Shown here in pieces: positions 6,980 to 40,788 of a stretch of 40,788 nt of DNA. The stretch's first letter is position 1, and each line of letters begins with the position of its first letter. Source of the DNA: an uncultured Bacteroidota bacterium (GTDB lineage Bacteria > Bacteroidota > Bacteroidia > Chitinophagales > Chitinophagaceae); assembly GCA_903878475.1 (NCBI GenBank), contig CAIRHQ010000041.1:1-40788 (forward strand), written 5' to 3'. The position numbers and the translations under genes were made by a program. The notes under the pieces were generated by a model, which had not been told where the DNA came from, searched no databases, and saw only the letters and a program-made list of their open reading frames with translations.

Positions 6980-7046
6980 CTCGAACCCGTCTCGCCTCAG
7001 GCGAGATGATTGGGCAGCATTCTAACCAACTGAACTACCGATCCTT
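6980..7046 (-). pseudogene. Broken tRNA-Asp copy carrying a palindrome
   Basis: Bases 7012-7046 are identical over 35 bases to 6758-6792, the 5' half of tRNA-Asp (acceptor 5' strand, D arm, 5' strand of the anticodon stem) with two leader bases. Bases 6980-6989 (CTCGAACCCG) match 6731-6740, the 5' side of the T arm. Between them, where the anticodon loop, its 3' strand and the variable loop should be, lies the palindrome 6990-7006 plus 5 bases. The T-stem and acceptor 3' strands are missing, so it cannot be a working tRNA. The promoter-like element at 7092-7099 is correctly placed for this copy, suggesting that this was the original gene start. Confidence 0.8.
6990..7006. repeat. 17-base palindrome TCTCGCCTCAGGCGAGA
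   Basis: Perfect 8-bp arms around one central base, inside the broken tRNA-Asp. The same palindrome with a variable centre occurs twice inside broken tRNA-Trp copies at 39054-39070 and 39097-39113. Confidence 0.9.
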
Positions 7047-7091
7047 CTGATTTTCCCTAAAAACAGGCAAAATTCCGTTTTTTAGGGACGG

Positions 7092-7099
7092 CAAAGATA
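7092..7099 (-). promoter_or_regulatory. -7 element TATCTTTG of the tRNA-Asp locus
   Basis: On the minus strand TATCTTTG matches the Bacteroidota -7 consensus TAnnTTTG and is followed by the G+C-rich stretch GCCGTCCC. It points at the broken tRNA-Asp copy about 45 bases downstream and, through it, at the intact tRNA-Asp. No clear -33 TTTG is seen. Confidence 0.55.
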
Positions 7100-7226
7100 G
7101 GTTTTTTTGTCTTTTACTTCAAAACTTTTATAAAATAATTGTAAGCGCTAATTTTACAAACTATCTTTCAGTTTTAAGTGACATATATATCATTAAATTG
7201 TTAAACTTAACCGGCAAAAGCAGTAC

Positions 7227-8207
7227 ATGATTGAGCTAAAAAAACGACAATTTCTCGACTTCGAAAAGCCTATTAAAGAGCTATACGACCAGATTGAACA
7301 ACTTAAGGTCACTTCGGAAAAATCGAAGACCAATATGAGTGGTGCCATCAGCATGCTCGAGGACCGAATCGTAGAAACAAAAAAACACCTCACCGCCAAT
7401 CTCACCCCCTGGCAAAAAGTACAACTGAGCCGGCATCCCGACAGGCCCTATACCCTCAAATACGTTGAGAATATGTGCACCAATTTTATTGAAATGCACG
7501 GCGACAGAAATGTAAAAGATGATAAGGCCATGGTGGGCGGATTTGCCCAACTGGGCGGGGAAACCATCATGATCATTGGTCAACAAAAAGGCTCCAATAC
7601 CAAAACAAGGCAAATGCGGAATTTTGGAATGGCCAACCCTGAAGGCTACCGCAAAGCCTTACGACTGATGAAACTGGCCGAAAAATTCAATAAACCGGTG
7701 ATCACACTCATCGATACACCGGGAGCCTTTCCAGGTCTGGAAGCTGAAGAAAGAGGACAAGGTGAAGCCATTGCCCGTAATATATATGAAATGATCAGGT
7801 TAAAAGTTCCAGTGATCTGTGTCATCATCGGCGAAGGAGCCAGTGGTGGTGCACTCGGGATCGGTGTGGGTGATAAGGTTTTTATGATGGAAAATACCTG
7901 GTATACCGTGATCTCGCCGGAAAGCTGCAGCAGCATCCTCTGGCGCAGCTGGGATAAAAAAGAAACCGCTGCCGAACAACTGCGTTTAACCGCTGAAGAT
8001 ATGCTTCAGTTTGGACTGGTGGATGGCGTGATCCCCGAACCATTGGGCGGAACACACTGGGACTATAAAGGAGCTGCAGAACTACTCAAAAACTTTCTGC
8101 TGCCCGTAATCAAATCCCTGAAAGCCATTCCGGCCGAACAAAGAATAACCGACCGAATCGAAAAATTCGGAAAAATGGGTTTCTGGGAAGAAACCGTTAT
8201 TGAATAA
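7227..8207 (+). CDS. accA: Acetyl-CoA carboxylase carboxyltransferase subunit alpha
   Basis: 326 residues, the usual length. With AccD it forms the cytoplasmic carboxyltransferase that moves CO2 from carboxybiotin to acetyl-CoA, the first step of fatty acid synthesis. The N-terminal helical part ([18 protein letters not shown]) is followed by [26 protein letters not shown], and the crotonase-fold oxyanion glycines in IDTPGAFPG and [15 protein letters not shown], all typical of AccA. The ATG at 7227 begins the conserved N-terminus. accD and accBC are not in this window. A TATCTTTC at 7162-7169 is a weak promoter candidate. First gene of a plus-strand run, 86 bases before the next gene. Confidence 0.97.
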
Positions 8208-8293
8208 AATTATTATCGGGTATTTACGGTTGTACGTAATATCTGTGTACCCACTCCAAACAGAAAATTATTGTTGAATAAAGAAATGATGCT

Positions 8294-9265
8294 ATGCTGA
8301 AAGTAGGAATTATAGGAGCCGGCCACCTGGGTAAATTTCATCTGAATAATTGGTCTGCCATGGAAAGCATCCAACTGATCGGGTTTTGTGATACCGATGA
8401 CGACAATGCAACACTCGTGAGTGAAAAATACCAACTCAAACGATTCAGTAACCCCGAAGCCCTGATGGATGAATGCGATGCCATCGATATAGTAGCCCCT
8501 ACCACGGCCCATTTCGAACTCTGCGAAATGGCCATCAAAAAAGGCAAACACGTATTCGTGGAAAAACCCCTGGCCAATACCATGGACGAAGCCCGGGAAC
8601 TATTGAAACTGGCCAAGGAAGCCAATATCAAATTTCAGGTAGGCCATGTGGAAAGATTCAATCCTGCCTTCCTCGCCTTAAAAGAATTTAACCTTCACCC
8701 CATGTTCATTGAAGTGCACCGCTTGGCGCAATTCAATCCAAGAGGTACCGATGTAAGTGTTATCCTCGACCTCATGATCCATGATATCGATATCATTTTA
8801 AGTCTGGTAAAAAGCAATGTAAATTATATCAGTGCCAACGGAGTAGCAGTAATGAGCGATACTCCCGATATCGCCAACGTGCGTATTGAATTTGATAACG
8901 GATGCGTGGCCAACCTTACCAGCAGCCGCATCTCCATGAAAAAGATGAGAAAGATGCGCTTGTTCCAGAAAGATGCGTATATCGGCATCGATTTTCTGGA
9001 AAAGAAAACAGAAGTGATCAAACTGAATACACCCGATGATAAAAACGTATTCACTTTCGATATTGAAACAAACAATGGCAAAAAAACTATCGCTATTGCA
9101 AACCCTTCGGTGAAAGATGGAAATGCAATTTTGATGGAACTGGAAGCTTTCCGGGATGCCATACTGAATAATACCAGTACCCCGGTTACTGTACTCGATG
9201 GATTCAGGGCCATGGAAGTAGCACACCAGATATTGGAAAAGATCGGGAAATCAACCCTGAGCTAA
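8294..9265 (+). CDS. Gfo/Idh/MocA family NAD(P)-dependent oxidoreductase
   Basis: 323 residues. The N-terminal Rossmann fold starts with GIIGAGHLGKFH (dinucleotide-binding GxGxxG), and the family signature EKPLANT follows at about residue 93, with the catalytic lysine of the EKP motif. The C-terminal part is the alpha/beta substrate domain (HDIDIILSLV). Members oxidise or reduce sugars and related polyols; the substrate here is not readable. A sugar transferase gene starts 24 bases downstream, which makes a nucleotide-sugar or polysaccharide role plausible (inference). The start has strong family support because GIIGAG is at residues 5-10. Confidence 0.9.
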   Translation: MLKVGIIGAGHLGKFHLNNWSAMESIQLIGFCDTDDDNATLVSEKYQLKRFSNPEALMDECDAIDIVAPTTAHFELCEMAIKKGKHVFVEKPLANTMDEARELLKLAKEANIKFQVGHVERFNPAFLALKEFNLHPMFIEVHRLAQFNPRGTDVSVILDLMIHDIDIILSLVKSNVNYISANGVAVMSDTPDIANVRIEFDNGCVANLTSSRISMKKMRKMRLFQKDAYIGIDFLEKKTEVIKLNTPDDKNVFTFDIETNNGKKTIAIANPSVKDGNAILMELEAFRDAILNNTSTPVTVLDGFRAMEVAHQILEKIGKSTLS

Positions 9266-9289
9266 ATCGTACCCTTTGTAAATTTTAGT

Positions 9290-10687
9290 GTGAACCAACC
9301 TCGCATACATATCCGCTGGTACGCCTTGGGCGATGCGCTTGCTTCCATCCTGGCATGGATCTGCTTTTATTATGTACGGGAATATATTTTAGGGCAAGAA
9401 TTCGCTACCGGAAAAAAATTCTACCTCGGCCTCGCACTATACCCACTGGCCTGGTTAATACTGTATTTTATCACAGGCGCTTATTATAACCTTTACCAAA
9501 AATCACGTCTGAATGAATTAACCAATACTTTCATCGTATCCACCATTGGCAGCATCTTCATTCTTTTCTTGTTCCTGTTATACGATGCTACCGGAGATTA
9601 TAATATTTACTACAAGGAATTTCTTTCCCTTACCGGCATTCAAATAGTGTTGGTATTTTCGGTCAGACTATTGCTGATCACCTATGCAAAAGACCAGATC
9701 AACCATGGGGAGGTTTTCTTTAATACCCTGATCCTGGGCTCCGATCAAAGCGCAGCTACTTTGTACAGCAGCCTCATGAACAACCCGGAAAAAACAGGAT
9801 TGAAAATCATTGGCTTCATCAATGCCAATGGAAATAATATTTCCTTGCTGCCAAATGAAGTGAAATATCTGGGCTATCTAGACCAAACAGCATCAGTAAT
9901 TGAAGCCCATCAAATTGAAGAAGTGATCATCGCTGTAGAAAGAAAAGAAAGAACTAAACTGGAAAATATCCTGCGGCAACTAAGCGATAAAGATGTTAAT
10001 ATAAAAATACTGCCCGACACAATTGATATCATCAGCGGTGCGGTAAAAACGAACAATGTACTCGGTGTTCCACTCATTGATCTGCATGCAGGCCTAATTC
10101 CCTTGTGGCAACAGAATATCAAACGCATGATCGATATAGCAATGGCCTTCCTCGGGCTGGTCCTGCTATCTCCCCTTTTTATCTATATCGCCATTCGCAT
10201 AAAACTTTCATCATCCGGCAAATTGCTTTATTTGCAGGAAAGGGTCGGATATAAAGGACGCGCTTTCACCATGATCAAATTCAGAAGCATGGTACCCGAT
10301 GCCGAAAAAAATGGTCCGCAACTCAGCAACGATTCCGATACCCGCATCACCCAATGGGGAAAGACCATGCGCAAATGGCGACTCGATGAACTTCCCCAGC
10401 TTTGGAATATCATGAAAGGTGAAATGAGCCTGGTAGGCCCCCGCCCTGAACGGAAATTTTATATTGACCAGATCGTGGCGCTTCACCCCGAATACAATTA
10501 CCTGCTTAAAGTAAAGCCCGGTCTCACCAGTTGGGGTATGGTAAAATTCGGTTATGCCTCCACGCTAGATGAATTGATCGAACGCATGCCCTTCGATCTT
10601 ATGTATATCGAAAATATTTCACTGGCCATCGATTTTAAGATCATGTTGCATACCATCCGGATCATCCTCTCTGGAAAAGGCAAATGA
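9290..10687 (+). CDS. Polyprenyl-phosphate sugar-1-phosphate transferase (exopolysaccharide initiation)
   Basis: 465 residues from a GTG. It has the WcaJ-type layout: four N-terminal transmembrane helices (about 10-140), a CoA-binding-like Rossmann region (about 140-260: [29 protein letters not shown]), a further hydrophobic helix and the C-terminal bacterial sugar transferase domain. That domain shows [46 protein letters not shown] and KPGLTSWG. These enzymes transfer a sugar-1-phosphate from UDP-sugar to undecaprenyl phosphate at the inner membrane, starting capsule or O-polysaccharide repeat synthesis. The sugar is not identified. The oxidoreductase upstream is probably in the same transcript. 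Confidence 0.92.
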
Positions 10688-10702
10688 TAGTATACACTAC
10701 AC

Positions 10703-10735
10703 TTGATGCGGATTGGAGCGATTTTACTATTTTTG
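10703..10735 (+). promoter_or_regulatory. Candidate promoter of the M1 peptidase gene
   Basis: TATTTTTG at 10728-10735 matches TAnnTTTG; TTG at 10703-10705 is 22 bases upstream, close to the usual spacing of the -33 element. A transcript would start only a few bases before the TTG start at 10753. Confidence 0.35.
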
Positions 10736-10752
10736 ATAAAACTATTTTGTAA

Positions 10753-13512
10753 TTGAAAAAAGTACTCCTAACACTGGTGCTGCTTGGTGTCCTAATAACC
10801 AACGCTTTCTGCCAAACTAATCCTTACTGGCAGCAACAGGTGAACTACAAAATAGATGTGCGTTTACAAGACTCCGAGCACACACTTGACGGATTCATCA
10901 AGATGGATTATTTCAATAATTCACCCGACACCCTCAATTTTATCTGGATCCATCTTTGGCCCAATGCCTACAAGAATGACCGTACCGCCTTCTCCGACCA
11001 ATTGCTGGAAAATGGGACTACTAAATTTTATTTCAGCAATGATGACCAGCGTGGATATATTAACCGGCTCGACTTTAAAATTAATGGCAATACCGTTAAA
11101 ACCGAAGACCATCCACAACACCAGGATATTATTAAACTTTTATTACTGCAACCGCTGCTGCCTGGAAAAACTATTCAGATAGAAACGCCTTTCCATGTAA
11201 AATTGCCCTATGTTTTTTCCCGGGGCGGGCATATAGAAAATAATTACTGGATCTCTCAATGGTATCCCAAACCGGCCGTGTACGACCGCAAAGGATGGCA
11301 TCCCATCCCCTATTTAGATCAGGGAGAGTATTACAGCGAGTTTGGCAATTATGAGGTGCAGATCACCGTGCCCCAAAATTATGTAGTGGCCGCAACTGGT
11401 ATCTTACAAAATGATACCATCGCAAGTTATAATCCTGCTTCCGCTGCCGGTTTAAAAACCTTAAAGTATAATCAAGATAATGTACACGATTTTGCCTGGT
11501 TTGCAGATAAACGCTTCGTAGTGGAATCGGATAGTCTTCGGTTGCCCTCCGGAAAGATCATCAATTGCTATTCTTATTTCCTTCCCATTCACCGGGATGT
11601 ATGGAAGAATAGCATTGCCATGATCAAAAGGGCTATTCTCAGCAAATCCAACTGGCTGGGAGAATACCCGTATCCGATTGTTTCTGTAGTGGATGGAGGC
11701 ACAGGAGGCGGCATGGAATATCCCACCATCACCCTGCTTGAATCGGGAGGCAGTGAAAGATCACTCGATATGGTCATCAACCATGAAGTAGGACACAACT
11801 GGTTTTATGGCATACTGGCCACTGATGAACGAACATATCCCTGGATGGATGAGGGCATGAATACTTATTACGATAACAGATATGCCCTTGAACAATATGG
11901 CAACACGGATGCCCCTTTAGGAAAATCATTTTTATCACGCAACCTGATGCCGTCCAATCCGGAAAAGATTTTAATGGATGAGTTGTTTCGTACCAAAAAA
12001 GACCAACCCATTGAAACCCCCTCGGAAAATTTCAATGAAATCAATTATAACCTGATCGCCTATTCGAAAACCGGCGACTGGATGCAACATCTTGAAAAAA
12101 TACTGGGAAAATCTATTTTTGACCAAGGCATGCAGGAATACTATCGCAACTGGCAGTTCAAACATCCTTATCCCGAAGATTTTAAACAGGTAATGGAAAG
12201 GGTAAGCAACAAAGACTTGAACAATGAATTTTCTCTATTGCAAAAAAAAGGCGATCTAGACGCATCGCATACGCAAAAAAAAGATTGGCGTATTGCTCCT
12301 TTTTTCAGTTTGAAGGCAACCGATAAACATCATTATATCTTTTTCGCCCCGGCGATTGGATTTAATTTCTACGACAAACAAATGTTTGGTGTGGCCCTTC
12401 ACAATTATACCCTGCCCAGCACCGGATTGCATTTTGTGGCGGTGCCGCTATACAGTACTGCCGTTAAACAATTCAATGGCATTGGGCGCATCAGCTATAC
12501 ATGGTTTCCGGGTACTAACGGACAAAAAGCTGAACTGGCACTCTCGGGTGAAAGTTTCACCGGAAATAGTTTCAGTGATTCAACCAGCACCCTGCATTAT
12601 CTTAGGTTTACAAAACTGGTACCCTCCGTTAAATATGTATTTGCCCTTAAAAATCCAAGAAGTACCATTACCCGTTTTATACAATGGAAAACTTTTCTGA
12701 TCAGCGAACAGGGTTTGCAGTTTTTTCGCGATACCACTTTACAAACTGATTTTATCAATTACCCATACACTTCAAGATACCTCAACCAGCTTCGGTTTGT
12801 GCTGGACAACCACCGGGTATTGTATCCTTATCGGGGTATTCTTCAATTGGAGCAGGGAGAAGGATTCGCCAGGCTCGATTTTACGGGAAATTATTTTTTC
12901 AACTATCCAAAAGGCGGTGGATTAAGCCTTAGATTTTTTGCCGGAAAATTTTTCTATCTGGGTTCTAAAACCGTTTACAAGCAATTCAGCACCGATGCCT
13001 ATCACCTTAACATGACAGGCCCGAAAGGATATGAAGACTATACTTACAGCAATTATTTTGTGGGACGCAATGAATTTGATCATTACCCTTCCCAGCAGAT
13101 CATGATCCGTGATGGGGCCTTTAAAGTAAGGACCGATTACCTCAGCAATAAAATTGGCAAAACAGACAATTGGCTTGCTGCCATCAACCTAAGTTCTGAT
13201 ATTCCAAAAGCCATTAACCCACTTTCCCTGCTCCCCTTTAAAATTCCGCTTAAACTATTTTTGGATATCGGCACCTATGCTGAAGCCTGGAAAAAAAATG
13301 CTGAAACGGGTAGGTTCGTGTATGATGGCGGACTTCAACTTTCGCTCTTCAAGGATATCGTAACTATTTATGTGCCGTTGGTATACAGCAAAGTGTATAC
13401 TAATTATTTCAAATCAACCCTCACAGAACAAAGGTTTCTTAAAAATATCGCATTCAGTATTAATGTTCAGGATATCAGCCTGCATAAATTCATCCCGCAA
13501 TTCGCATTTTAA
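10753..13512 (+). CDS. Secreted M1 family metallopeptidase
   Basis: 919 residues from a TTG (MKKVLLTLVLLGVLITNAFCQ), a Sec signal peptide ending before residue 21. The zinc site is complete: His344-Glu345-x2-His348 and Glu367 18 residues later (VINHEVGHNW ... PWMDEGMN), preceded by the substrate-anchoring GGGMEYPT motif of M1 aminopeptidases. The N-terminal beta domain binds the peptide amino end. The last ~350 residues are rich in aromatic and beta-type segments and look like an added beta-domain common in Bacteroidota M1 proteins. Probably periplasmic or outer-surface; peptide use is the likely role. The next gene begins 2 bases after the stop. Confidence 0.92.
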   Translation: MKKVLLTLVLLGVLITNAFCQTNPYWQQQVNYKIDVRLQDSEHTLDGFIKMDYFNNSPDTLNFIWIHLWPNAYKNDRTAFSDQLLENGTTKFYFSNDDQRGYINRLDFKINGNTVKTEDHPQHQDIIKLLLLQPLLPGKTIQIETPFHVKLPYVFSRGGHIENNYWISQWYPKPAVYDRKGWHPIPYLDQGEYYSEFGNYEVQITVPQNYVVAATGILQNDTIASYNPASAAGLKTLKYNQDNVHDFAWFADKRFVVESDSLRLPSGKIINCYSYFLPIHRDVWKNSIAMIKRAILSKSNWLGEYPYPIVSVVDGGTGGGMEYPTITLLESGGSERSLDMVINHEVGHNWFYGILATDERTYPWMDEGMNTYYDNRYALEQYGNTDAPLGKSFLSRNLMPSNPEKILMDELFRTKKDQPIETPSENFNEINYNLIAYSKTGDWMQHLEKILGKSIFDQGMQEYYRNWQFKHPYPEDFKQVMERVSNKDLNNEFSLLQKKGDLDASHTQKKDWRIAPFFSLKATDKHHYIFFAPAIGFNFYDKQMFGVALHNYTLPSTGLHFVAVPLYSTAVKQFNGIGRISYTWFPGTNGQKAELALSGESFTGNSFSDSTSTLHYLRFTKLVPSVKYVFALKNPRSTITRFIQWKTFLISEQGLQFFRDTTLQTDFINYPYTSRYLNQLRFVLDNHRVLYPYRGILQLEQGEGFARLDFTGNYFFNYPKGGGLSLRFFAGKFFYLGSKTVYKQFSTDAYHLNMTGPKGYEDYTYSNYFVGRNEFDHYPSQQIMIRDGAFKVRTDYLSNKIGKTDNWLAAINLSSDIPKAINPLSLLPFKIPLKLFLDIGTYAEAWKKNAETGRFVYDGGLQLSLFKDIVTIYVPLVYSKVYTNYFKSTLTEQRFLKNIAFSINVQDISLHKFIPQFAF

Positions 13513-13514
13513 CG

Positions 13515-14426
13515 GTGGCCATACAATACCTCACATACGCCGAAATAGATCTCAAAAAATGGGACGACTGCATCCTTCGTGCAAACAACGGATTGATCTA
13601 TGCCTATTCATTTTATCTGAACCAGATGGCCCTGAACTGGGATGCCCTGGTGATGGATGATTATGATGCCGTGATGCCCCTCACCTGGAATAAAAAATAT
13701 GGCATCCATTATTTATACCAGCCTGCTTTTACCGCTAGCCTGGGTGTATTCGGAAAAGATATTGATGCTTCCAAACTGAATGCATTTCTCAACGCCATAC
13801 CGGAGAAATTCAAATACTGGGATATCTGCCTCAATCATGAGAATTGTTTCCCCGTAAAAGATTTCACACTCTACGAACGAGTGAATTATGTATTGGCGCT
13901 TCAACAACCTTATGAAAAAATATTCAGCCAGTTCAGGGAAAGTACTCAACGAAATATAAAAAAATCGAAGGATCTTAATTGTGTCATCAAAAAGAATATA
14001 GCTGCCGAGGATATTATTTCCCTATCCCGATCCCAAGCATTGAATTTCGACGCAGTAACAAATGAAGATTTTAAACATATCGGAAATTTATACAGTCTGT
14101 TGCTGCAACAAGAGCAGGCATGTAATTATGCGGTATACAGCAATAGCGAACTTGTTGCTGCTGCTTTGTTTTTCTTTTCAAATAAACGGGCTTACTATAT
14201 TCTGGTGGGCAACCACCCCAACAGCAAAGTGCTGGGAGCTTCTCATGCCCTCATCAATGCATTCATTAAAGACCATACTGAACATGACCTCACACTTGAT
14301 TTTGAAGGATCAGATATCAGCAGTCTCGCTTTTTTTTATGGCAGTTTTGGCGCTGTTATAGAAAAATATGCAGCACTCAGGCTAAACCGTTTGCCGGTAT
14401 GGGCCAAATGGATGAAGCGTAGTTAA
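13515..14426 (+). CDS. FemAB/GNAT-like acyl- or aminoacyltransferase
   Basis: 303 residues from a GTG, 2 bases after the M1 peptidase stop, so translation is likely coupled. No signal peptide. The double GNAT-type fold is suggested by the central FRESTQRNIKKSKD motif, typical of the FemAB/peptidoglycan-bridge group, followed by a second half with AVYSNSELVAAALFFFSNKRAYYI and LTLDFEGSDISSLAFFYGSFG. Members transfer amino acids or acyl groups in cell-wall or polysaccharide modification; the substrate is unknown. It ends 2 bases from the convergent ispD stop, and no terminator is visible between them. Confidence 0.75.
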   Translation: MAIQYLTYAEIDLKKWDDCILRANNGLIYAYSFYLNQMALNWDALVMDDYDAVMPLTWNKKYGIHYLYQPAFTASLGVFGKDIDASKLNAFLNAIPEKFKYWDICLNHENCFPVKDFTLYERVNYVLALQQPYEKIFSQFRESTQRNIKKSKDLNCVIKKNIAAEDIISLSRSQALNFDAVTNEDFKHIGNLYSLLLQQEQACNYAVYSNSELVAAALFFFSNKRAYYILVGNHPNSKVLGASHALINAFIKDHTEHDLTLDFEGSDISSLAFFYGSFGAVIEKYAALRLNRLPVWAKWMKRS

Positions 14427-14428
14427 CC

Positions 14429-15094
14429 CTATGGATGAATGAGTCTTTCGGCGATCAGCAGATCAACAGGACTGGTGATCTTTAAATTATTTTCTTCGCC
14501 CGCTATCAGCTGCACTTTCAAACCAAATGATTCTACCACGGTTGCTTCATCGGTAAATTTCTCTTTATAATCGATCTTGAAAGCCGGCAATAATATCTTG
14601 CTGTGAAATGTTTGTGGTGTTTGTACTAATCTAATGCGGCTCCGCTCCAGGGCTTCATTGCCTTCGTCGGTAATCATTCTTAAACTATCTCGGCTATCCA
14701 CCACCGGTATGGCCGAACCCTGATCCAGGGCAGCTTCATAGCAACGATGAATCAGGTCTTCCGTGACCAGGCAACGCACGGCATCATGTACAAAAATGAT
14801 GCTCTCGTCGTTGATCATTGCCAACCCGTTCTGCACTGAATGAAATCTGGTTCGCCCCCCTACGGTGATCTGTATACGCTCATAATCAAAAAAAGCATCA
14901 ATGATCTCCTGCCCGGCAGATACATGCGCCTCGGGCAAAACCAAAATGAGCTGCAGGTCGGCATAGGCCTGTAAAAAAGCCTTGATGGTATAATAGAGTA
15001 CCGGCTTCCCGTTCAACAATAAAAATTGTTTGGGCACAGTATGATTCATCCTGCTTCCCATTCCTCCCGCCACTATGACTGCAAATTTTTTCAT
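14429..15094 (-). CDS. ispD: 2-C-methyl-D-erythritol 4-phosphate cytidylyltransferase
   Basis: 221 residues. The N-terminus MKKFAVIVAGGMGSRM is the CTP-binding GGxGxRM loop; HTVPKQFLLLNGKPVLYYT, FVHDAVRCLV and PVVDSRDSLR are further family motifs. The enzyme joins CTP and methylerythritol phosphate in the non-mevalonate isoprenoid pathway. An upstream in-frame ATG at 15241 would add 49 residues running into the preceding gene and without family similarity, so the start at 15094 is chosen. It follows the isoaspartyl peptidase gene by 37 bases on the same strand, probably as one transcript. Confidence 0.95.
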   Translation of the reverse strand: MKKFAVIVAGGMGSRMNHTVPKQFLLLNGKPVLYYTIKAFLQAYADLQLILVLPEAHVSAGQEIIDAFFDYERIQITVGGRTRFHSVQNGLAMINDESIIFVHDAVRCLVTEDLIHRCYEAALDQGSAIPVVDSRDSLRMITDEGNEALERSRIRLVQTPQTFHSKILLPAFKIDYKEKFTDEATVVESFGLKVQLIAGEENNLKITSPVDLLIAERLIHP

Positions 15095-15131
15095 ATATAG
15101 ATGACTGCAGGAGCAAACCTGCATGACTGAT

Positions 15132-16082: not shown

Positions 16083-16110
16083 ATAATCGTGTAGTATTTT
16101 TATTAAAGAA

Positions 16111-16118: not shown

Positions 16119-16157
16119 TCTATTTTACTGCCACAAACCTTCTAAGAATTCAAGACA

Positions 16158-16832: not shown

Positions 16833-16867
16833 ATTTGTTGAACACAACCTGTATCACTTGAAATCCT

Positions 16868-31878: not shown

Positions 31879-31923
31879 AACAATTATTTTTATCTCCTGA
31901 TGAATACCCGGAGCATTTCAGAT

Positions 31924-32613: not shown

Positions 32614-32631
32614 TTCTTACAAATTTTTGAA

Positions 32632-32649
32632 GTCCCGAACCATCGGGAC
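32632..32649. repeat. Palindrome GTCCCGA-ACCA-TCGGGAC in the rplK-rplA gap
   Basis: Perfect 7-bp arms around a 4-base loop, no T tract. It shares the core TCCCGA-N4-TCGGGA with the palindrome in the tRNA-like array at 40563-40730. Could fold in the polycistronic mRNA between the L11 and L1 cistrons. Confidence 0.85.
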
Positions 32650-32659
32650 AGGTTGATAA

Positions 32660-33103: not shown

Positions 33104-33190
33104 TTTTTTTAATTTAATTGGTGATAGCGTCTGGCCTATGGCTAGACTCCCAAGTCAATATAATTCTAAAAAAGAACTTTTTTGGGACGG

Positions 33191-33198
33191 CGAAGGTA
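33191..33198 (-). promoter_or_regulatory. Candidate rplKAJL promoter, -7 element TACCTTCG
   Basis: On the minus strand TACCTTCG differs from TAnnTTTG by one base. It is preceded by TTTTTTCCC and followed by GCCGTCCC, the same discriminator as the tRNA-Asp promoter at 7092-7099. It lies about 90 bases before the rplK ATG. The rest of the 330-base gap 33104-33433 is A+T-rich; I see no clear plus-strand promoter for the secreted-protein gene. Confidence 0.5.
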
Positions 33199-33433
33199 GG
33201 GAAAAAATCAGAGAAAAATATGAATTTCCTGCTTTTTTTATTAGTGCGACCCTTGAAATAAAAAAAATATATAATTAATATATCCGCAACACAACCTATT
33301 CTTTCTGCCACCCGATTAGACAAATAACAACAGATTCAAAATATTTTAAATAATTTCTAATTAACATATTAATTGCAAGGAGATTAAGTAGATTAATAAC
33401 GCTATTGAGTTCGCCTGCACCAAAAACTATATT

Positions 33434-36400
33434 ATGAAAAAGAATTTCCTTCTTTTTTGCTTTATTGCTATATCTAATCTTGCCTTTTGCCAGTTTCCAG
33501 CCCCATATTGTAATGAATTCTACCCTTCTGGAGTAGAACCCATCACGCTGGTAACTTTTCAGAGCATAAACAATGCTTCATCAGCAATAGCCGGCGGAAC
33601 AGCTCATGAAGATTTTACTTTATCCGTAACCGCCGCAAGCGTGATTGCCGGAAGCAGTTACACGATGTCCGTAAGAGGAAATACAGTAGGAAATTTTATC
33701 AATTATATCCGGGTTTTCATCGATTGGAACAATGATGGCGACTTCCTGGACCCGAACGAGAGTTACGACATCGGAACCATTACTAATTCTTCCGGACTGG
33801 ATGGCTTGCAGGCAGTCAATACCATCGTGGTACCTCCCGGAACTACAAATGGCTATAAAAGGATGCGGGTAACAAAAAAATATGCTGGTTACCAGACTCC
33901 GTGTAACACAACCGGGTACGGACAGGCAGAAGATTACCAGGTTCGTGTATATTCAATGGAGCCTTACTGCACCGAAGCGTATCCATCAAATGTAGAACCG
34001 ATCACATTGGTCACCTTCTTCTACAACGCAGTATCATCAAGTGCAGTTGTAAATGGCTCGCCGGAGAATGAAGACTTTACCAATATTGCTCCTACAAGGG
34101 TCGTTGCAGGAAGGTCATATGCCATTTCGGTGAAAGGGAATACCGATGGCATTCCTTATACAGATTATATCAGGGCTTTCATCGATTGGAACAATGACGG
34201 AGATTTTTTTGATGCAGGAGAAAGTTATGATATTGGAACCATCACCGGTTCAACCGGGCTTGATGCAATACAAGCATCCAACTTTATTGCTATTCCACCA
34301 GGTACTCCGGCTGGTAACTATCGCATGCGGGTCAGTAAAAAATATGCCGGATATCCTCCTCCCTGCAATACTGGTGGCTTTGGCCAGTCGGAGGACTATC
34401 TCATCCAGGTTTACAGTATGGCACCCTACTGTACTGATTCATACCCGAGTAATATTGAGCCCATCACGAAAGTGGATTTTTCAGCCATTTCTAACTGGAC
34501 AAATGCATTGCTAAATGGATCTCCAGATAATGAAGACTTTACCTATATCAATGGCGTGGTAGTGCCGGGAAATACATACACGATGAAAGTGGCAGGTAAT
34601 ACGGATGGAAATTATACGGATTATATTTCGGTTTTCATTGACTGGAATGGTAATGGCGACTTCCTTGATCCTAACGAAGTATTTAATATTGGAACCATCA
34701 CCAATTCTACCGGGCAAGATGCAATATTCATTTCCGGACCAATTGCTGTTCCCGCAGGAACAAGCCTCGGCAATAAACGAATGCGCGTGGTAAAACATTT
34801 TGGTGGTTATTTAAGCCCCTGTACTTCCTATGGATTCGGACAATCGGAAGATTATACACTCTCTGTTGTTGGCTCCATTAAAGCCGTGCTTTCTACCGGT
34901 AACGCATACCTGCAAGGCGATTATGTAGAAGTAGGAATCAATCAATGCGGTGGATGGGGTACCACTACTACGGCACCGCAAGGGTACCATGCAAGAAGCG
35001 GTGTAACAATTGCTTCAAACTATAATGCACAACTAAGTCTTGGTTTTGTAGCAGATCCCGATAAAGATGGTTGGACAACTGGAAGCCCAAGTAAATACAA
35101 CGGGGATTATTTTATGCCGGCATCTCCTTATATTGGCTGGGGCATAAATTTTAATGGACTTAGCTATGGTACCGATCGTACAAATTCCACCCAAACTAAT
35201 TGCGCACTGATGGTGGGCACTAGCAACCCAAATCAAACCTTTTCCGGGGTCAACGTCTCTGCCACCGGTTATGCAACAAAAGCAGAATCGGTTTGGGAGG
35301 GCACCCATAACGGGTTAAAGATCCAGAAAATAACTACAGTAAAACAAGACAAGGTATATTTCACTGCACGGATAAAAATTTATAACACAACCGCCTTTTC
35401 TATTTCGAATATCTATTATGGTGAGTACATAAATCCCGACCCAGAAGCCTATTATAATGACATATATACAGCAAACCTCAATACCATTAACACAATTGTG
35501 AACCAGAATCCCACAAATGGGCAGGCACTGGTTCAGGCTATAAGTAGCCCTCACAATGTTTATGTAGCGTTGGGCACAAAAGATTGCCGGGCCAAGGTTT
35601 TCAGAAGTCCATCAAATGTAGTTCCAAATTTTTCACCAATCAATTGGTATAGTGGCGGTGGAAATGTTTCTTTAACTGGTGCCGATGCTATTGCTACTAA
35701 CCTTTGTTATGGTATTGCCTATAATATTGGCACCCTGGCTCCCGGAGACAGTACCAGTTTTCTGTATACCTATATTCTGAAAGCCACCGATTTTGATGAG
35801 GCCCTCTCAGAAACAGAACCCAGTTTCCTGTCCAACAATATCAGCATCCTCAATGACGGCACCATCACACCTTGTGCAAATACACCTGTGGATGTATCCA
35901 TCGTAGATGGTGATTATTATAATTGGGTATGGAGTCCGGCGAGCGGACTGAATACTACAACCGGAGAAAATGTTACGATCACTCCAGGCACGACACCAAT
36001 CACATACACAATAACGGGAACGGGTACCTGCGCAAACAAGACCATTACCCTCAATGTAAATCCTGTTAATACTACAGACGTAGTGACCACTCCAGCCAGT
36101 ATCGTTAAATGCATCTCAGATCCTCCGGTGTTGCTAACTGCAAGCGGGGGCGATTTTACTGACGCAGTGATCCTGAATGAAAAATTCAATTCGTTATATG
36201 ATAACTGGACGAAGCTCAATAATTCAACAGGCGGTGTTCCTGCCAATGCTGCTTGGACATTAAGACCGAATAATTATTTATATGCGGCTACTACTTTTAA
36301 CAGCAATGACAATACACAGTTTTACCTGAGCAACAGTGATGCCCAGGGCAATGGAAGTACCATCGCTACCATCCTTCAATCACCCGCATTTAGCACCTTG

Positions 36401-37972
36401 AATTACAACAGTGTGAATCTTAGCTTTTATCATTATTTCCGCGAAGATGCTGCAGCAAGCACGGCTGTAGTTGAAGCATCTACCGATAGAATAAACTGGA
36501 CCAACCTGCAGACCTATACCAGTACCACTGGAAGCAGTAGCAGTTTTTCACTGGAGACCATTGCATTAACGCCCGCATTCATTGACCAGCCACTGGTGTA
36601 TATCCGTTTCAAATATGATGGTTCCTGGAGTAGTTATTGGGCAATTGATAATGTGCAGGTAACAGGTAGCGGACAACCCCTTGTATGGGCCCCGATCACT
36701 GGATTATACAACGATGCTGCAGGAACGATCCCCTACACAGGTGTCATTACCACAAGCGTTTATGCCAATCCCGCTCTAACAACAGTTTACACTGCTTCTT
36801 CACTGGTTGGCAATTGTTCTAAAACAGCAGATGCAACAGTCACGGTAAATAACCCTACCAATATTCTGGCCGGCGTAGTAGGTGCTGGAACCTGTCAGAA
36901 TAAAGCGGTTGATAATGCTGGCACGGTTTATAATGCAACCAGTTGCGACCTGATCGGAAAAGTAACTCCTGCTGGTGCCAGTCCGGTAGCTGGTGATATA
37001 AACATGTGTGTAACCCTGGATGATATGGCAGGGCCCTTACCAGAATTCAATGCAGAGCCCTATCTTACCCGGCACTATGATGTGGAACCCGCACTCAATG
37101 CAGCAACAGCTACAGCCAGGGTAACTTTCTATTTCACGCAGGAAGAATTTGATAATTACAATGCCAAAAATTCTGTGTGGCCCGATCTTCCAACCGGCCC
37201 GGGTGATGTAGTTGGTATTGCCAATCTCCGGATGTCACAATACCATGGCACCCCTACTTCAACACCCTCCAGTCCGGGCCAATACACCGGCACCGGTGAA
37301 TATATTGATCCAGCTGATGTAGATATCGTTTGGAATGGCAGCTACTGGGAAGTAACCATTGACGTAACAGGTTTCTCCGGATTTTATGTGCACACCAATT
37401 TTAGATATATTCTGCCCATTACCCTGAACTACTTTAACGGCAATACAAATGGCAACGACAATATCCTGAACTGGAAAGTAAATTGCAACAACACTAACGG
37501 CATCAGTTATACGCTGGAAAGAAGTGGAGATGCTGTGCACTATACCGGCATCAGCGACTATCATCCCAGCTTTGCTCAATGCGGATCGCCATTTAGTTAT
37601 ACGGATGTGAACGCCCCTAAAGGCATCAATCACTACCGGCTAAAAATTATAGCTCCAGATGGTGCGATCAGTTATAGTAACCAAGTGGTTTTGTCGAATG
37701 ATTACAAAGGTTCCGATATCATCAACCTTTCACCGGTTCCGGTACCAGCCGACGGGAATTTTGCACTCACCCTGGTAACCGAAAAACAAGGTAAGGCGGA
37801 ACTGACGATCATGGATCTTCAGGGAAGAGTGGTATTACGTAAACCGATCAACGTAGTAAAAGGCGCCAATATGTACAACCTGAATATTGCGGAACTGGCC
37901 GCGGGATCATACCAGTTGATCGAGTACCGACAGGATCAACCGACAAGAACGATCCGGTTTGTAAAATTATAA
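33434..37972 (+). CDS. Giant secreted GEVED-repeat protein with type IX sorting domain
   Basis: 1512 residues with signal peptide MKKNFLLFCFIAISNLAFCQ. Three tandem ~153-residue GEVED units follow (start near 24, 177 and 331; DNA 33503, 33962, 34424). Each opens PYC..YPS..EPIT, has the calcium-loop-like DWNNDGDFLD or DWNGNGDFLD and ends with GQ(A/S)EDY. Then come a long uncharacterised region, an Ig-like segment (about 810-876, YNWVWSPASGLN), a MAM/choice-of-anchor-J-like domain (about 910-1080, LNEKFNSLYDNW ... YWAIDNVQVTG) and a C-terminal type IX sorting domain (about 1425-1512: LSPVPVPADGNFALTL ... AELAAGSYQLIEY). It is expected on the cell surface or outside, probably in adhesion. It lies opposite to, and between, nusG and rplK. 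Confidence 0.93.
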   Translation: MKKNFLLFCFIAISNLAFCQFPAPYCNEFYPSGVEPITLVTFQSINNASSAIAGGTAHEDFTLSVTAASVIAGSSYTMSVRGNTVGNFINYIRVFIDWNNDGDFLDPNESYDIGTITNSSGLDGLQAVNTIVVPPGTTNGYKRMRVTKKYAGYQTPCNTTGYGQAEDYQVRVYSMEPYCTEAYPSNVEPITLVTFFYNAVSSSAVVNGSPENEDFTNIAPTRVVAGRSYAISVKGNTDGIPYTDYIRAFIDWNNDGDFFDAGESYDIGTITGSTGLDAIQASNFIAIPPGTPAGNYRMRVSKKYAGYPPPCNTGGFGQSEDYLIQVYSMAPYCTDSYPSNIEPITKVDFSAISNWTNALLNGSPDNEDFTYINGVVVPGNTYTMKVAGNTDGNYTDYISVFIDWNGNGDFLDPNEVFNIGTITNSTGQDAIFISGPIAVPAGTSLGNKRMRVVKHFGGYLSPCTSYGFGQSEDYTLSVVGSIKAVLSTGNAYLQGDYVEVGINQCGGWGTTTTAPQGYHARSGVTIASNYNAQLSLGFVADPDKDGWTTGSPSKYNGDYFMPASPYIGWGINFNGLSYGTDRTNSTQTNCALMVGTSNPNQTFSGVNVSATGYATKAESVWEGTHNGLKIQKITTVKQDKVYFTARIKIYNTTAFSISNIYYGEYINPDPEAYYNDIYTANLNTINTIVNQNPTNGQALVQAISSPHNVYVALGTKDCRAKVFRSPSNVVPNFSPINWYSGGGNVSLTGADAIATNLCYGIAYNIGTLAPGDSTSFLYTYILKATDFDEALSETEPSFLSNNISILNDGTITPCANTPVDVSIVDGDYYNWVWSPASGLNTTTGENVTITPGTTPITYTITGTGTCANKTITLNVNPVNTTDVVTTPASIVKCISDPPVLLTASGGDFTDAVILNEKFNSLYDNWTKLNNSTGGVPANAAWTLRPNNYLYAATTFNSNDNTQFYLSNSDAQGNGSTIATILQSPAFSTLNYNSVNLSFYHYFREDAAASTAVVEASTDRINWTNLQTYTSTTGSSSSFSLETIALTPAFIDQPLVYIRFKYDGSWSSYWAIDNVQVTGSGQPLVWAPITGLYNDAAGTIPYTGVITTSVYANPALTTVYTASSLVGNCSKTADATVTVNNPTNILAGVVGAGTCQNKAVDNAGTVYNATSCDLIGKVTPAGASPVAGDINMCVTLDDMAGPLPEFNAEPYLTRHYDVEPALNAATATARVTFYFTQEEFDNYNAKNSVWPDLPTGPGDVVGIANLRMSQYHGTPTSTPSSPGQYTGTGEYIDPADVDIVWNGSYWEVTIDVTGFSGFYVHTNFRYILPITLNYFNGNTNGNDNILNWKVNCNNTNGISYTLERSGDAVHYTGISDYHPSFAQCGSPFSYTDVNAPKGINHYRLKIIAPDGAISYSNQVVLSNDYKGSDIINLSPVPVPADGNFALTLVTEKQGKAELTIMDLQGRVVLRKPINVVKGANMYNLNIAELAAGSYQLIEYRQDQPTRTIRFVKL

Positions 37973-38011
37973 AAGCAAGCGTTATATCTTCAACAAAGAC
38001 AGACAGAAACT

Positions 38012-38042
38012 AAAAAGCCCATCCGATTGGATGGGCTTTAAT
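38012..38042. terminator. Bidirectional terminator between the GEVED gene and nusG
   Basis: Perfect 11-bp stem AAAGCCCATCC / GGATGGGCTTT (38014-38024, 38029-38039) with a GATT loop and A/T flanks. It lies between two convergent genes (stops at 37972 and 38057) and can serve both. Confidence 0.85.
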
Positions 38043-38056
38043 TTATTTGTATCGCA

Positions 38057-38665
38057 TTAGGATATCTTTTCCACCTGCATATAGCTAAGTTCAACGGGAG
38101 TAGCCCTTCCGAAGATCTTCACCTGTACTTTTAATTTTTTCTTCTCGTCATTCACTTCTTCAATCACACCGTTGAAATCGTTGAACGGACCGTCGATGAT
38201 CTTGATGGTTTCGCCAATGATGAATGGTTCACTCATCGTCATACCACCTGCATCGCTCATTTCATCTACTTTACCCAGCATCTTGTTCACTTCCGACTTA
38301 CGCAAAGAAATGATATTGCCCTTTGATCCTTTTCCATCGGTAAGGAAGTGCATCACATTGCTGATATTGCTCATCGATTGGATCATATCATCATGCAGTT
38401 TGCCGTCGGCCACTTCAATCATGATATACCCGGGATAGAAATTTCTTTCACGCATCACTTTTTTACCATTCACTACCTTGTACACTTTTTCTACTGGTAA
38501 AAAAACCTGCTTTACTATATTGGTCCAGCCATTGCGCACAATATCCTTATCCAGGTATTCCTTGATCTTCCGCTCCTTACCACTCACTACGCGCAGCACA
38601 TACCATTTGCTTTCCTTTTCGGCCTTCTCCACTTTTTCTACTGCAATTCCTGTTGTTTCTTCCAT
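38057..38665 (-). CDS. nusG: Transcription termination/antitermination factor NusG
   Basis: 202 residues: NGN domain (KWYVLRVVSGKERKIKEYLD ... NFYPGYIMIEV) and C-terminal KOW domain (IKIIDGPFNDFNGVIEEVN). It binds RNA polymerase and links it to Rho or ribosomal protein S10. The start is 1 base after the secE stop, so the pair is coupled as in most bacteria. Downstream the usual rplK is displaced by the GEVED gene. Confidence 0.98.
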   Translation of the reverse strand: MEETTGIAVEKVEKAEKESKWYVLRVVSGKERKIKEYLDKDIVRNGWTNIVKQVFLPVEKVYKVVNGKKVMRERNFYPGYIMIEVADGKLHDDMIQSMSNISNVMHFLTDGKGSKGNIISLRKSEVNKMLGKVDEMSDAGGMTMSEPFIIGETIKIIDGPFNDFNGVIEEVNDEKKKLKVQVKIFGRATPVELSYMQVEKIS

Positions 38666-38666
38666 G

Positions 38667-38861
38667 TTATTTGAATAAAGAATAAATGAATTTCATTGAG
38701 CCGGTTGCAGCAAAGTCCATTACCCAAACCACAAAAGTGATCATCAGGGTAGCCCCCAAAACGATCATTGTAGATTGTTGCAACTGATCCCATCCTGGCC
38801 AGGTTACTTTCTGTACCAGTTCTTTGTAAGAATCTTTTAAGTATGCGGTTAATTTATTCAT
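38667..38861 (-). CDS. secE: Preprotein translocase subunit SecE
   Basis: 64 residues, the short single-helix form. The amphipathic YLKDSYKELVQKVTWPGWDQL with the conserved V-x-W-P precedes the transmembrane helix (TMIVLGATLMITFVVWVMDF). With SecY it forms the protein-conducting channel. It sits between tRNA-Trp and nusG, the common Bacteroidota order. Confidence 0.96.
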   Translation of the reverse strand: MNKLTAYLKDSYKELVQKVTWPGWDQLQQSTMIVLGATLMITFVVWVMDFAATGSMKFIYSLFK

Positions 38862-38966
38862 ATCATTAAATCATTTAAAAATTAAAACGGTGTAAAGCGG
38901 CTCAGTGTAAGCGTTAAAGGTACATTACCTTAAACGTTAAACCTGCAACCTTAAACACTTCATTCG

Positions 38967-39037
38967 CACGGGCACTAGGATTCGAACCCAGATCAAAGGT
39001 TTTGGAGACCCGTATGCTACCGTTGCACCATGCCCGT
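38967..39037 (-). tRNA. tRNA-Trp (CCA)
   Basis: 71-base cloverleaf. Acceptor ACGGGCA (5' end at 39037) pairs fully with TGCCCGT. D arm GTGC-AACGGTA-GCAT. Anticodon loop CTCCAAA gives CCA, with the stem's outermost pair (C-T) mismatched. T arm CTGGG-TTCGAAT-CCTAG (one G-T pair). The 3' CCA is not encoded. Located between tuf and secE as expected. Two broken copies lie directly upstream. Confidence 0.93.
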
Positions 39038-39044
39038 ATTATTT

Positions 39045-39124
39045 AGACCCGTATCTCGCCTGAGGCGAGACCATGCCCTTATTATTCAGACCAGAATCTC
39101 GCCTGCGGCGAGACCATGCCCGTA
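39045..39124 (-). pseudogene. Two tandem broken tRNA-Trp copies with the D arm replaced by a palindrome
   Basis: On the minus strand each ~43-base unit reads ACGGGCATGG (or AAGGGCATGG), a 17-base palindrome, TACGGGTCT (or TTCTGGTCT) and an A+T-rich spacer like the real gene's own 5' flank. The intact tRNA-Trp has ACGGGCATGG, then TGCAACGGTAGCA (the D arm), then TACGGGTCT. So the D arm has been exchanged for TCTCGCCTCAGGCGAGA (39054-39070) or TCTCGCCGCAGGCGAGA (39097-39113), and the units end in the anticodon stem. They lack everything 3' of it and cannot be functional tRNAs. Confidence 0.8.
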
Positions 39125-39181
39125 ATTGCTACCAAACAGCTTTGAAAGTGGATAGTAAGCGTATAAAAATAAAGAACTTTT

Positions 39182-39222
39182 AAAAAAGCAAAGTACCTAA
39201 GCGGATCGCCTAAGTACTTTGC
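39182..39222 (-). terminator. tuf terminator
   Basis: On the minus strand a 9-bp outer stem GCAAAGTAC / GTACTTTGC (39188-39196, 39214-39222) with a partly paired inner loop is followed by TTTTTTA. It lies about 50 bases past the tuf stop and would separate tuf from the downstream tRNA-Trp and secE. A short CCC-TTCG-GGG hairpin (about 39252-39261) lies even closer to the stop. Confidence 0.8.
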
Positions 39223-39272
39223 AAAGTTATTAAAAAGCTTCCACAAAGTCCCCCTTCGGGGATGCAGGCGCT

Positions 39273-40460
39273 TTATTTTACGATTTCGGTAACCTGGCCA
39301 GCACCTACGGTACGACCACCTTCACGAATCGCGAATTTCAATCCTTTCTCCATTGCGATCGGCTGAATCAGCGTTACGTTCAATGAAGTATTATCGCCAG
39401 GCATCACCATTTCTGTACCGGCATTCAAAGTTACCTCTCCGGTAACGTCAGTAGTACGGAAATAGAACTGAGGACGATATTTGTTGAAGAATGGAGTATG
39501 ACGTCCACCTTCTTCTTTGCTCAATACGTAAACCTCTCCTTTGAATTCAGTATGCGGAGTGATAGAACCTGGTTTGCAAAGTACCATACCACGACGGATC
39601 TGAGTTTTCTCAATACCGCGCAATAATAAACCTGCATTATCTCCAGCTTCACCTTCATCGAGTAATTTTTTGAACATCTCAACACCAGTACAAGTTGTAG
39701 CCAGTGGTTTGTCCATCAAACCTACGATCTCAATGGCTTCACCCACTTTGATACGACCTCTTTCAATACGACCGGTAGCAACAGTACCACGACCAGTGAT
39801 TGAGAATACATCCTCAACACTCATCAGGAAAGGAAGGTCAACCAACCGTGGAGGTAATGGGATATAGCTATCCACAGCATCCATCAGTTCGTCAATTTTC
39901 TTAACCCATTTTTCTTCTCCGGCTAAAGCACCAGTAGCAGAACCCTGGATGATCGGTGTGTTATCACCATCAAAACCATATGAGGTCAGCAGTTCGCGGA
40001 TCTCCATTTCAACCAGTTCCAATAATTCAGGATCATCTACCAGATCAACTTTGTTCATGAAAACAACGATCTGAGGTACACCTACCTGACGAGCCAACAA
40101 GATGTGCTCTTTGGTTTGTGGCATTGGACCATCGGTAGCCGCTACCACTAAGATAGCACCATCCATTTGGGCAGCACCCGTGATCATGTTCTTCACATAA
40201 TCCGCGTGACCCGGACAGTCAACGTGCGCATAGTGACGCGCAAGTGTAGCATACTCCACGTGTGCAGTATTGATCGTGATACCCCTTTCTTTTTCTTCAG
40301 GTGCACCATCGATATCATCATAATTTTTTTTCTCCGCTAAACCTTTTTTTGACAAAACATCGGTTATAGCGGCTGTAAGTGTTGTTTTACCATGATCCAC
40401 GTGACCGATAGTACCAACGTTAAGATGGGGTTTATCCCTCTTGAAAGATTCTTTTGCCAT
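39273..40460 (-). CDS. tuf: Elongation factor Tu
   Basis: 395 residues, full length. GTPase motifs: GHVDHGKT (P loop), DCPGHADY (switch II), NKVD and GSATGAL-type G5. It delivers aminoacyl-tRNA to the ribosome. It lies downstream of a tandem tRNA-like array on the same strand, with 100 bases between. Codon use is even and conserved, as expected for a highly expressed gene. Confidence 0.99.
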
Positions 40461-40562
40461 TGTTTAAATTTTAATATTTGTTTTGAAAATTGGTTTTCAT
40501 TTAAAGTCTGTAAACCATGGACCTATTATGTTATAAGTGCTAAGCACCCGAATGAATTCTTT

Positions 40563-40636
40563 GAGCCATCAGTGAGAATCGAACTCACGACCCTCCCGAT
40601 TTCAATCGGGATGCTCTACCACTGAGCTACAACGCA
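40563..40636 (-). pseudogene. tRNA-like unit 1
   Basis: Where the anticodon arm belongs is the palindrome TCCCGATTGAAATCGGGA. Its symmetry allows an 8-base loop on a 5-bp stem, or longer pairing, but not the standard 7-base loop, so no anticodon can be read with confidence (GAA is central). Acceptor strands TGCGTTG and TGATGGC pair at only five of seven positions, mostly G-T, and fail at the end pairs. The GGGTCGTGAGTTCGATTCTC 3' half resembles tRNA-Gly/Thr types expected upstream of tuf. A gene finder may call it a tRNA; I think it is a derived, non-functional copy. Confidence 0.6.
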
Positions 40637-40656
40637 TCTTTTTCAAATATCTTCTC

Positions 40657-40730
40657 GAGCCATCAGTGAGAATCGAACTCACGACCCTCCCGATTTCAAT
40701 CGGGATGCTCTACCACTGAGCTACAACGCA
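40657..40730 (-). pseudogene. tRNA-like unit 2
   Basis: Identical to unit 1 over all 74 bases, including the palindrome in the anticodon-arm position, which implies recent duplication or gene conversion. Confidence 0.6.
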
Positions 40731-40788
40731 TTACTTTTCAAATATATTCTCGACCCATCAGTGAGAATCGAAATCACGACCCTCCCGA

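Follow-up and report, generated by a model that had tools for sequence, protein, structure and literature searches.

Partial tRNA copies in the window

The window, that is, the whole 40,788-nucleotide stretch of DNA analysed here (from an uncultured Chitinophagaceae bacterium), carries intact tRNA-Asp and tRNA-Trp genes accompanied by partial copies, as well as three tandem tRNA-Thr units, with the Asp, Trp, and Thr copies all located on the minus strand (Table 1). The Asp copy comprises Asp positions 1-33, a palindrome, and CGGGTTCGAG. The GIY-YIG sequence between it and the intact gene matches PF01541 over positions 1-43 of 78 (E 4.1e-7); the first-pass annotation had placed a gene at 6820-6963, and the domain match holds, but two internal stops (one TGA, one TAA) mark it as a broken remnant rather than an intact gene. 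In the Trp copies, the D arm TGCAACGGTAGCA is lost and its flanks, ACGGGCATGG (AGGGCATGG in one copy) and TACGGGTCT or a near copy of it, are kept, whereas in the Thr units the anticodon arm CTTCCTTGGTAGGGAAG of the reference, the tRNA-Thr(GGT) genes of relatives, is exchanged for TCCCGATTGAAATCGGGA. The palindrome positions and genuine tRNA flanks reported earlier for these copies were confirmed, and the tandem tRNA-like units noted at 40563-40788 proved to be tRNA-Thr(GGT) with the palindrome at the anticodon arm.

Table 1. Positions of tRNA genes, partial tRNA copies, and associated features in the window
Feature	Position	Strand	Basis or detail
tRNA-Asp(GTC), intact	6716..6790	-	ARAGORN; Rfam tRNA
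Small GIY-YIG gene remnant, flanked by intact tRNA-Asp and partial Asp copy	6799..6963	-	PF01541
tRNA-Asp partial copy	6980..7044	-	Asp positions 1-33 at 7012-7044; CGGGTTCGAG at 6980-6989
Palindrome TCTCGCC-TCA-GGCGAGA in Asp copy	6990..7006	n/a	
tRNA-Trp(CCA), intact	38966..39037	-	ARAGORN; Rfam tRNA
tRNA-Trp copy 1, truncated	39045..39079	-	palindrome 39054-39070 instead of D arm
tRNA-Trp copy 2, truncated	39087..39123	-	palindrome 39097-39113; 43-base tandem unit
tRNA-Thr(GGT) copy 1	40563..40637	-	palindrome 40594-40611 instead of anticodon arm; Rfam tRNA; relatives' genes
tRNA-Thr copy 2, identical to first	40657..40731	-	palindrome 40688-40705; 94-base period; Rfam tRNA
tRNA-Thr copy 3	40752..40788	-	contig end falls inside palindrome

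Distribution of the palindromes

TCTCGCC-N3-GGCGAGA occurs exactly in the Asp and both Trp copies, and the search allowing up to two mismatches gave four matches compared with 0.05 in shuffles; TCCCGAT-N4-ATCGGGA is exact in the first two Thr copies (0.13 in shuffles). The phenomenon is wider than first described, as palindrome-bearing copies of Leu, Lys, Val, Ala, Met, and Ser tRNAs are present elsewhere in the same genome (2.85 Mb). Genome-wide, the four TCTCGCC-type sites all have an intact tRNA no more than 300 bp away (0.02 expected under independence, the two tandem Trp sites being non-independent), as do two of the five TCCGCC-type sites, with two others located within tRNA-Met fragments. 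TCCCGA-N6-TCGGGA is a dispersed repeat of 37 sites, of which three are near intact tRNAs (0.23 expected), two more are Thr units, and the remaining 32 are away from tRNAs. Occurrence independent of tRNA genes, which the first-pass annotation had named as evidence against a tRNA association, is largely what the TCCCGA type exhibits. Among 59 genomes (the window's own and 58 relatives), TCCCGA-N2-8-TCGGGA was present in 54 (at most 43 per genome) and TCCGCC-N2-6-GGCGGA in 41 (at most 35), with 0-3 per genome for reversed controls. Palindromes of both types were also found within other repeats and in intergenic DNA.

Of the partial-copy clusters at loci in this genome and its relatives, 68/103 contained a palindrome; the set retains weak chance hits and lacks this genome's own Trp, Leu, and Ser copies, which are too short for the BLAST used. 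At E <= 1e-6 a palindrome was present in 51/59 copies, the other eight lacking it by the rule used. Control frequencies were 36/1704 for windows drawn at random from those loci, often in coding sequence, and 9/70 for intact tRNAs. Chance or decay as the source of the palindromes, already doubted in the first-pass annotation, was rejected on the basis of the shuffles, the proximity to tRNAs, and these controls.

GIY-YIG genes and tRNA-Met-type loci

GIY-YIG sites were taken from the PF01541 matches listed (UvrC-size proteins, some small ones, and the weakest matches being left out), and the matches listed exceeded the PF01541 cut-off. Among these matches, 53 of 73 sites (5 from this genome and 68 from relatives) are at a tRNA or tRNA fragment, and 18 of the 20 sites off tRNAs form one separate protein clade; 14 of 20 further sites are likewise at a tRNA or fragment. 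On the tree of 73 sequences (L100, the same place as L088, being excluded), tRNA isotype labels require 29 changes over all groups compared with 50.3 when shuffled, and none of 200 shuffles was as low. In many genomes, small GIY-YIG genes belonging to a single protein group adjoin tRNAs accompanied by palindrome-bearing copies, a relationship strongly supported by association; the earlier suggestion of a GIY-YIG link gains support to the same degree, with cutting itself being inferred. Four tRNA-linked GIY-YIG proteins compared with PHROGs and NCBIfam gave no family match, and tblastn with one protein as the query retrieved 13 phage records (identity 39-50 percent), 10 of which carry a GIY-YIG annotation.

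Scanning named genomes with the tRNA-Met-type protein yielded 294 relatives, and 79 loci from several phyla were examined. Sixty have an intact tRNA-Met within 600 bases and nine are at Met fragments (69 together), the commonest order being tRNA-nuclease-palindrome (22/79). The palindrome was present in 83 of 98 partial copies at these loci, 71 of which contain TCCGCC or GGCGGA; it is usually TCCGCC-N4-GGCGGA at a fixed position, and the junction CATA-palindrome-C reappears with identical bases. This junction pattern was found in 24/395 genomes of the phylum, the window's own included, compared with one for the reversed control. The loci L193, L197, and L208 contain 3' parts or a decayed copy of normal sequence from which the palindrome is absent. 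Nine of the 59 genomes contain the Met-type nuclease and have TCCGCC counts of 2-35, and the 50 others have a median of 1 (Mann-Whitney p 1.7e-4, with locus copies counted in, kinship ignored, and genomes classed among the PF01541 matches listed), which is at most suggestive of an association between the nuclease and higher TCCGCC copy number.

An alternative view is that REP-like palindromes spread by themselves and collect in neutral DNA, neutral tRNA copies included, the nuclease being unconnected with them. The presence of both palindromes in most of the 59 genomes against nearly empty reversed controls, and their occurrence in other repeats and intergenic DNA, would be expected under this view. 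We nevertheless consider it unlikely given that 51/59 well-matched copies carry a palindrome, that tRNA-Met receives it at one exact position, and that even in the window's genome, despite its larger number of TCCCGA sites, Met copies carry a TCCGCC stem. No such palindrome was found within about 1.5 kb of the two Y1_Tnp matches of this genome, which also led us to reject a RAYT origin. The first-pass annotation had proposed a family of tiny palindromic elements; dispersed repeats do exist, but at tRNAs the fixed position and the mostly single Met stem across phyla suggest that the palindrome is an integral component of a tRNA-linked unit, and the first-pass interpretation as a whole is partly supported.

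Of 106 Met palindrome segments (3 unusable), 69 were unique and 63 had at least 14 bases: 50 with TCCGCC/GGCGGA, 5 with two-sided changes, 4 with a change on one side, and 4 wrongly cut by the rule. The stem sequence is conserved and the loop is variable. Stems that stay paired despite two-sided changes (5/63), and a longer hairpin replacing a hairpin, would also fit template switching at small inverted repeats during replication or repair, with tRNA arms as natural targets; hairpin creation by this process has been reported (PMC8794818). As this would not account for one stem sequence recurring across tRNAs and phyla, we regard this origin as improbable. Outside tRNAs, palindromes were nested in longer inverted repeats in 16/52 cases compared with 19 percent for mismatched flanks, which is not clearly above chance (mean score 8.6 compared with 7.5, highest shuffle 8.67; striking cases L297, L284, and L285), and hairpin-tip swapping was rejected as a general rule there.

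The conserved stem, variable loop, and two-sided changes, together with anticodon-loop bases kept in some loops (Lys TTTTAA), could likewise reflect selection for a hairpin in functional RNAs, either tRNA-like transcripts or decoys. However, numerous copies comprise half a tRNA and cannot adopt its fold, and only 1/4 single stem changes in Met segments gives a G-U pair, which makes this explanation very improbable. Folding energies of three copies were near those of shuffles, as was that of the intact tRNA-Asp, making this comparison uninformative.

A proposed tRNA-linked element and known systems

We propose that the Asp, Trp, and Thr copies are probably units and remnants of chromosomal, tRNA-linked, SegB-like GIY-YIG mini-elements, with cutting and mobility as inferred properties. 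The proposal draws on the observed gene order, isotype preference, fixed palindrome position, Met stem and loop pattern, and tandem units. Typical units sit immediately downstream of a functional tRNA and consist of a spacer (mostly 36-90 bases) with the terminator, then a small gene with a GIY-YIG domain of about 70 residues, and finally a copy of that tRNA, partial or complete, whose D arm or part of whose anticodon region is a GC-rich perfect palindrome. Static arrays are present in G025, with five tandem 365-base units, and in L212 (Niastella caeni) and L223, with two or three nuclease genes. By analogy with the phage homing endonuclease SegB, the nuclease would cut the tRNA gene, and recombination repair would duplicate tRNA pieces and carry the unit along. 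The palindrome would render the spare copy uncuttable and break its homology with the functional gene, thereby stabilizing the unit.

In this genome, copies at the Trp, Leu, Ser, and Ala loci and at one Met locus have no adjoining GIY-YIG gene; they may be remnants or have been made in trans. In 28 relatives with tRNA-Trp adjoining tuf, both Trp copies and GIY-YIG genes are absent from the locus, so that Trp copies arise without any known Trp nuclease. These loci weigh against the proposal, as do the 32 TCCCGA-N6 sites away from tRNAs, the copies that lack a palindrome (eight of the 59 well-matched ones and those at L193, L197, and L208), and the missing PHROGs and NCBIfam matches.

More tentatively, the element may be a selfish chromosomal unit consisting of a tRNA-isotype-specific GIY-YIG nuclease and a palindrome-tagged pseudo-tRNA, in which the palindrome serves as the working DNA site, either as a protection mark or for recombination, with dispersed palindromes as by-products, a nuclease-based counterpart of REP/RAYT. 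If so, bacterial chromosomes would gain a SegB-like system of the phage kind, a source would be provided for many of the partial tRNA copies and short palindromes of Bacteroidota and neighbouring phyla, and tiny nucleases with tRNA-gene preference would become available, with the palindrome copy as a natural candidate "uncut" control. Judged by titles and abstract beginnings in mostly open-access literature, no publication describes bacterial GIY-YIG genes at tRNAs together with palindromic tRNA copies, and a literature search on four palindrome strings gave no match.

Rickettsia palindromic elements are palindromes of about 100-150 bases inside genes, longer than those described here, which mostly have 14-21 bases and reside in additional tRNA copies. 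Elements that integrate into tRNA genes leave the displaced tRNA 3' part downstream and carry an integrase; the 365-base unit of G025 has room for a GIY-YIG gene, and no integrase gene was found in its full length. REP/RAYT palindromes (PMC3733652, PMC2817692) are similarly short and dispersed, but those described here occupy a fixed position inside tRNA copies and are accompanied by a nuclease of another fold. SegB of phages T4/T6 is, according to the accessible part of PMC13096335, a free-standing GIY-YIG homing endonuclease that cuts inside tRNA genes, drives tandem amplification of the tRNA and segB unit, and has no preference for particular isotypes, whereas the nuclease groups described here go with one isotype. 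Partial tRNA copies with palindromes, of which that part of PMC13096335 makes no mention for SegB, are a feature of the present units. SegB is a phage protein and the present units belong to bacterial genomes of several phyla; the two are likened by the GIY-YIG domain and by the position of a small free-standing gene adjoining tRNA genes.

Spare tRNA copies in the window and its genome

The palindromes that the first-pass annotation had placed within spare tRNA copies of the window were confirmed in position, and their occurrence lies far above chance. On the minus strand, a broken GIY-YIG gene separates the intact tRNA-Asp from its partial copy (a spare tRNA piece beside the functional gene), two truncated 43-base copies lie directly upstream of tRNA-Trp (also minus strand), and two whole units and one cut unit, likewise on the minus strand, follow each other with a period of 94 bases at the contig end. 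Judged by relatives, in which the tRNA preceding tuf is Thr(GGT), these units are tRNA-Thr(GGT) copies. Elsewhere in the window (33694-34726), a 115-base repeat occurs three times at intervals of about 460 bases, with 70-73 percent identity to the middle copy.

Ten tRNA loci chosen from the same genome were read along their flanks, which revealed further copies (table). This genome has seven PF01541 (GIY-YIG) matches. The five small ones, of which three are open and two broken, are all located at a tRNA or a fragment of one; the other two belong to frames 213 and 460 residues long, on whose loci no tRNA was found. At the Phe locus, a 15-base tRNA start accompanies a GIY-YIG gene, with no perfect palindrome in the inverted-repeat count.

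Further tRNA copies in the genome of the window
Copy	Position	Palindrome or arm	Source
tRNA-Lys	downstream, behind GIY-YIG gene	TCCCGATTTTAATCGGGA in anticodon arm	flank reading
tRNA-Val, two	downstream, GIY-YIG gene between them		flank reading
tRNA-Ala	upstream	palindromes in D loop and anticodon arm	flank reading
tRNA-Leu(TAG), two	upstream	D arm	flank reading
tRNA-Met	upstream	TCCGCCACGGCGGA	flank reading
tRNA-Ser	downstream	TCCGCCGCGGCGGA	flank reading
tRNA-Met 3' parts, two	contig C151, one each side of GIY-YIG gene	TCCGCCGCGGCGGA	

DNA no more than 300 bp from an intact tRNA makes up 0.6 percent of this genome. This territory holds 4/4 sites of TCTCGCC-N3-GGCGAGA and 3/37 of TCCCGA-N6-TCGGGA, to which the two Thr units add; the latter is therefore a dispersed repeat that lies mostly away from tRNA copies, though enriched at them. 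For the TCCGCC type, two of five sites are in the territory and two more lie inside Met fragments. Among 59 genomes (the window's own and 58 relatives), the TCTCGCC palindrome occurs in three, including the window's own, the TCCCGA type in 54 and the TCCGCC type in 41. Some TCCGCC palindromes form the tips of longer hairpins resembling intrinsic terminators (L297:585, L284:621). At five loci (L010, L040, L303, L306, L307), TCCCGATAGCTATCGGGA lies within TTCGACA...CAG repeats, at a place where other copies of such repeats may read AGCT, as if arms had been added around a small palindrome. Within an array of seven tRNAs, a tRNA-Ser(TGA) called by ARAGORN (L276:588-676) holds TCCGCCAGCTGGCGGA at about the variable arm, a palindrome in what may be a functional tRNA.

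Palindromes and GIY-YIG genes at tRNA loci of relatives

Perfect inverted repeats of at least six pairs were present in 68 of the 103 BLAST clusters representing partial copies at GIY-YIG/tRNA loci of this genome and its relatives, versus 36/1704 random windows and 9/70 intact tRNAs; for repeats starting with TC and ending with GA, the counts were 50, 6 and 1, respectively. Restricting the set to E <= 1e-6 leaves 59 clusters, of which 51 carry a palindrome (40 of them TC..GA) and eight do not. The stem varies by tRNA, being TCCGCC for Met, TCCCGA for Val, Lys and most Arg(ACG), several for Asp, and CCTGCCTGCCGGCAGGCAGG or near it for the group around Arg(CCT) and Leu(GAG); at the Arg and Leu copies of five loci (L090, L092, L104, L105, L134), which have a nuclease group of their own, the latter has the same role.

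PF01541 matches, UvrC included, occur in 59/59 genomes, and 53 of the 73 GIY-YIG sites examined are tRNA-linked. Eighteen of the 20 unlinked sites encode ordinary small GIY-YIG nucleases that group in a single clade; of the other two, L123 encodes a Met-type protein and lies 286 bases from the end of a contig, while L138 has no tRNA. A further 20 sites comprised 14 linked to tRNAs, one with tRNA-Lys 1170 bases off and five without tRNA. Isotype groups cluster in the protein tree, which, built on 74 columns, leaves many forks open and several isotypes (e.g., Val) not as one group. In one relative (G025:C3:41000-46500), five tandem 365-base units, each comprising a nuclease gene, an Asp 3' part that carries the palindrome TCCCCACAGTATTGTGGGGA, and a terminator, adjoin one intact tRNA-Asp.

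As an independent test, named genomes were scanned with the Met-type protein, yielding 294 relatives, and 79 loci were read, assigned by record title to Bacteroidetes of several orders, Balneola, Gracilimonas, Rhodothermia, Ignavibacteria, KSB1, Cloacimonadota and Marinimicrobia. Intact tRNA-Met lies within 600 bases at 60 loci, and nine have Met fragments only; tRNA-Asn occurs at three, an Asn fragment at one and tRNA-Asp at one (428 bases off, contig end), while five lack a tRNA (four at contig ends, one without any). Palindromes occupy 83 of the 98 partial copies, CATA-ACCCGAAGGT-C of the functional gene (with small variations) corresponding to CATA-TCCGCC-N4-GGCGGA-C in the copies. Among 63 segments delimited by their flanks, the stem is exact in 50, changed on both sides with pairing kept in five and on one side in four (one G-T); four were wrongly cut. 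Five loci have a piece, uncalled by ARAGORN, in which the normal sequence runs on with no palindrome: the contig end truncates L194, N precedes the piece at L243, and L193, L208 and L197 hold 3' parts or a decayed copy. The junction pattern was found in 24/395 genomes of the phylum (the window's own included) versus one for the reversed pattern. The junction CATATCCGCC-N4-GGCGGAC also occurs in five viral-contig stretches (L313-L317).

Origin of the copies

In 28 of 29 relatives, tRNA-Trp was found next to tuf. On none of these 28 loci was a second occurrence of the first ten tRNA-Trp bases or a GIY-YIG gene found, and the only nearby palindrome lies inside tuf; for these reasons the window's Trp copies look like a gain of its own lineage. 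No GIY-YIG gene lies beside the Trp copies of the window either, and no Trp nuclease is known here.

The commonest order is tRNA, nuclease, palindrome copy (exactly so in 22/79 loci). Together with the tandem repeats of nuclease and copy, it fits a unit that would land on the 3' part of a tRNA. The palindrome may make the spare copy resistant to the nuclease and may limit its recombination with the functional gene. Dispersed palindromes and nuclease-free copies are left unexplained by this proposal; its main rival is that another agent spreads the palindrome. A possible model for the nuclease unit is the phage enzyme SegB, which cleaves inside tRNA genes and is required for tandem amplification of tRNA and segB (PMC13096335).
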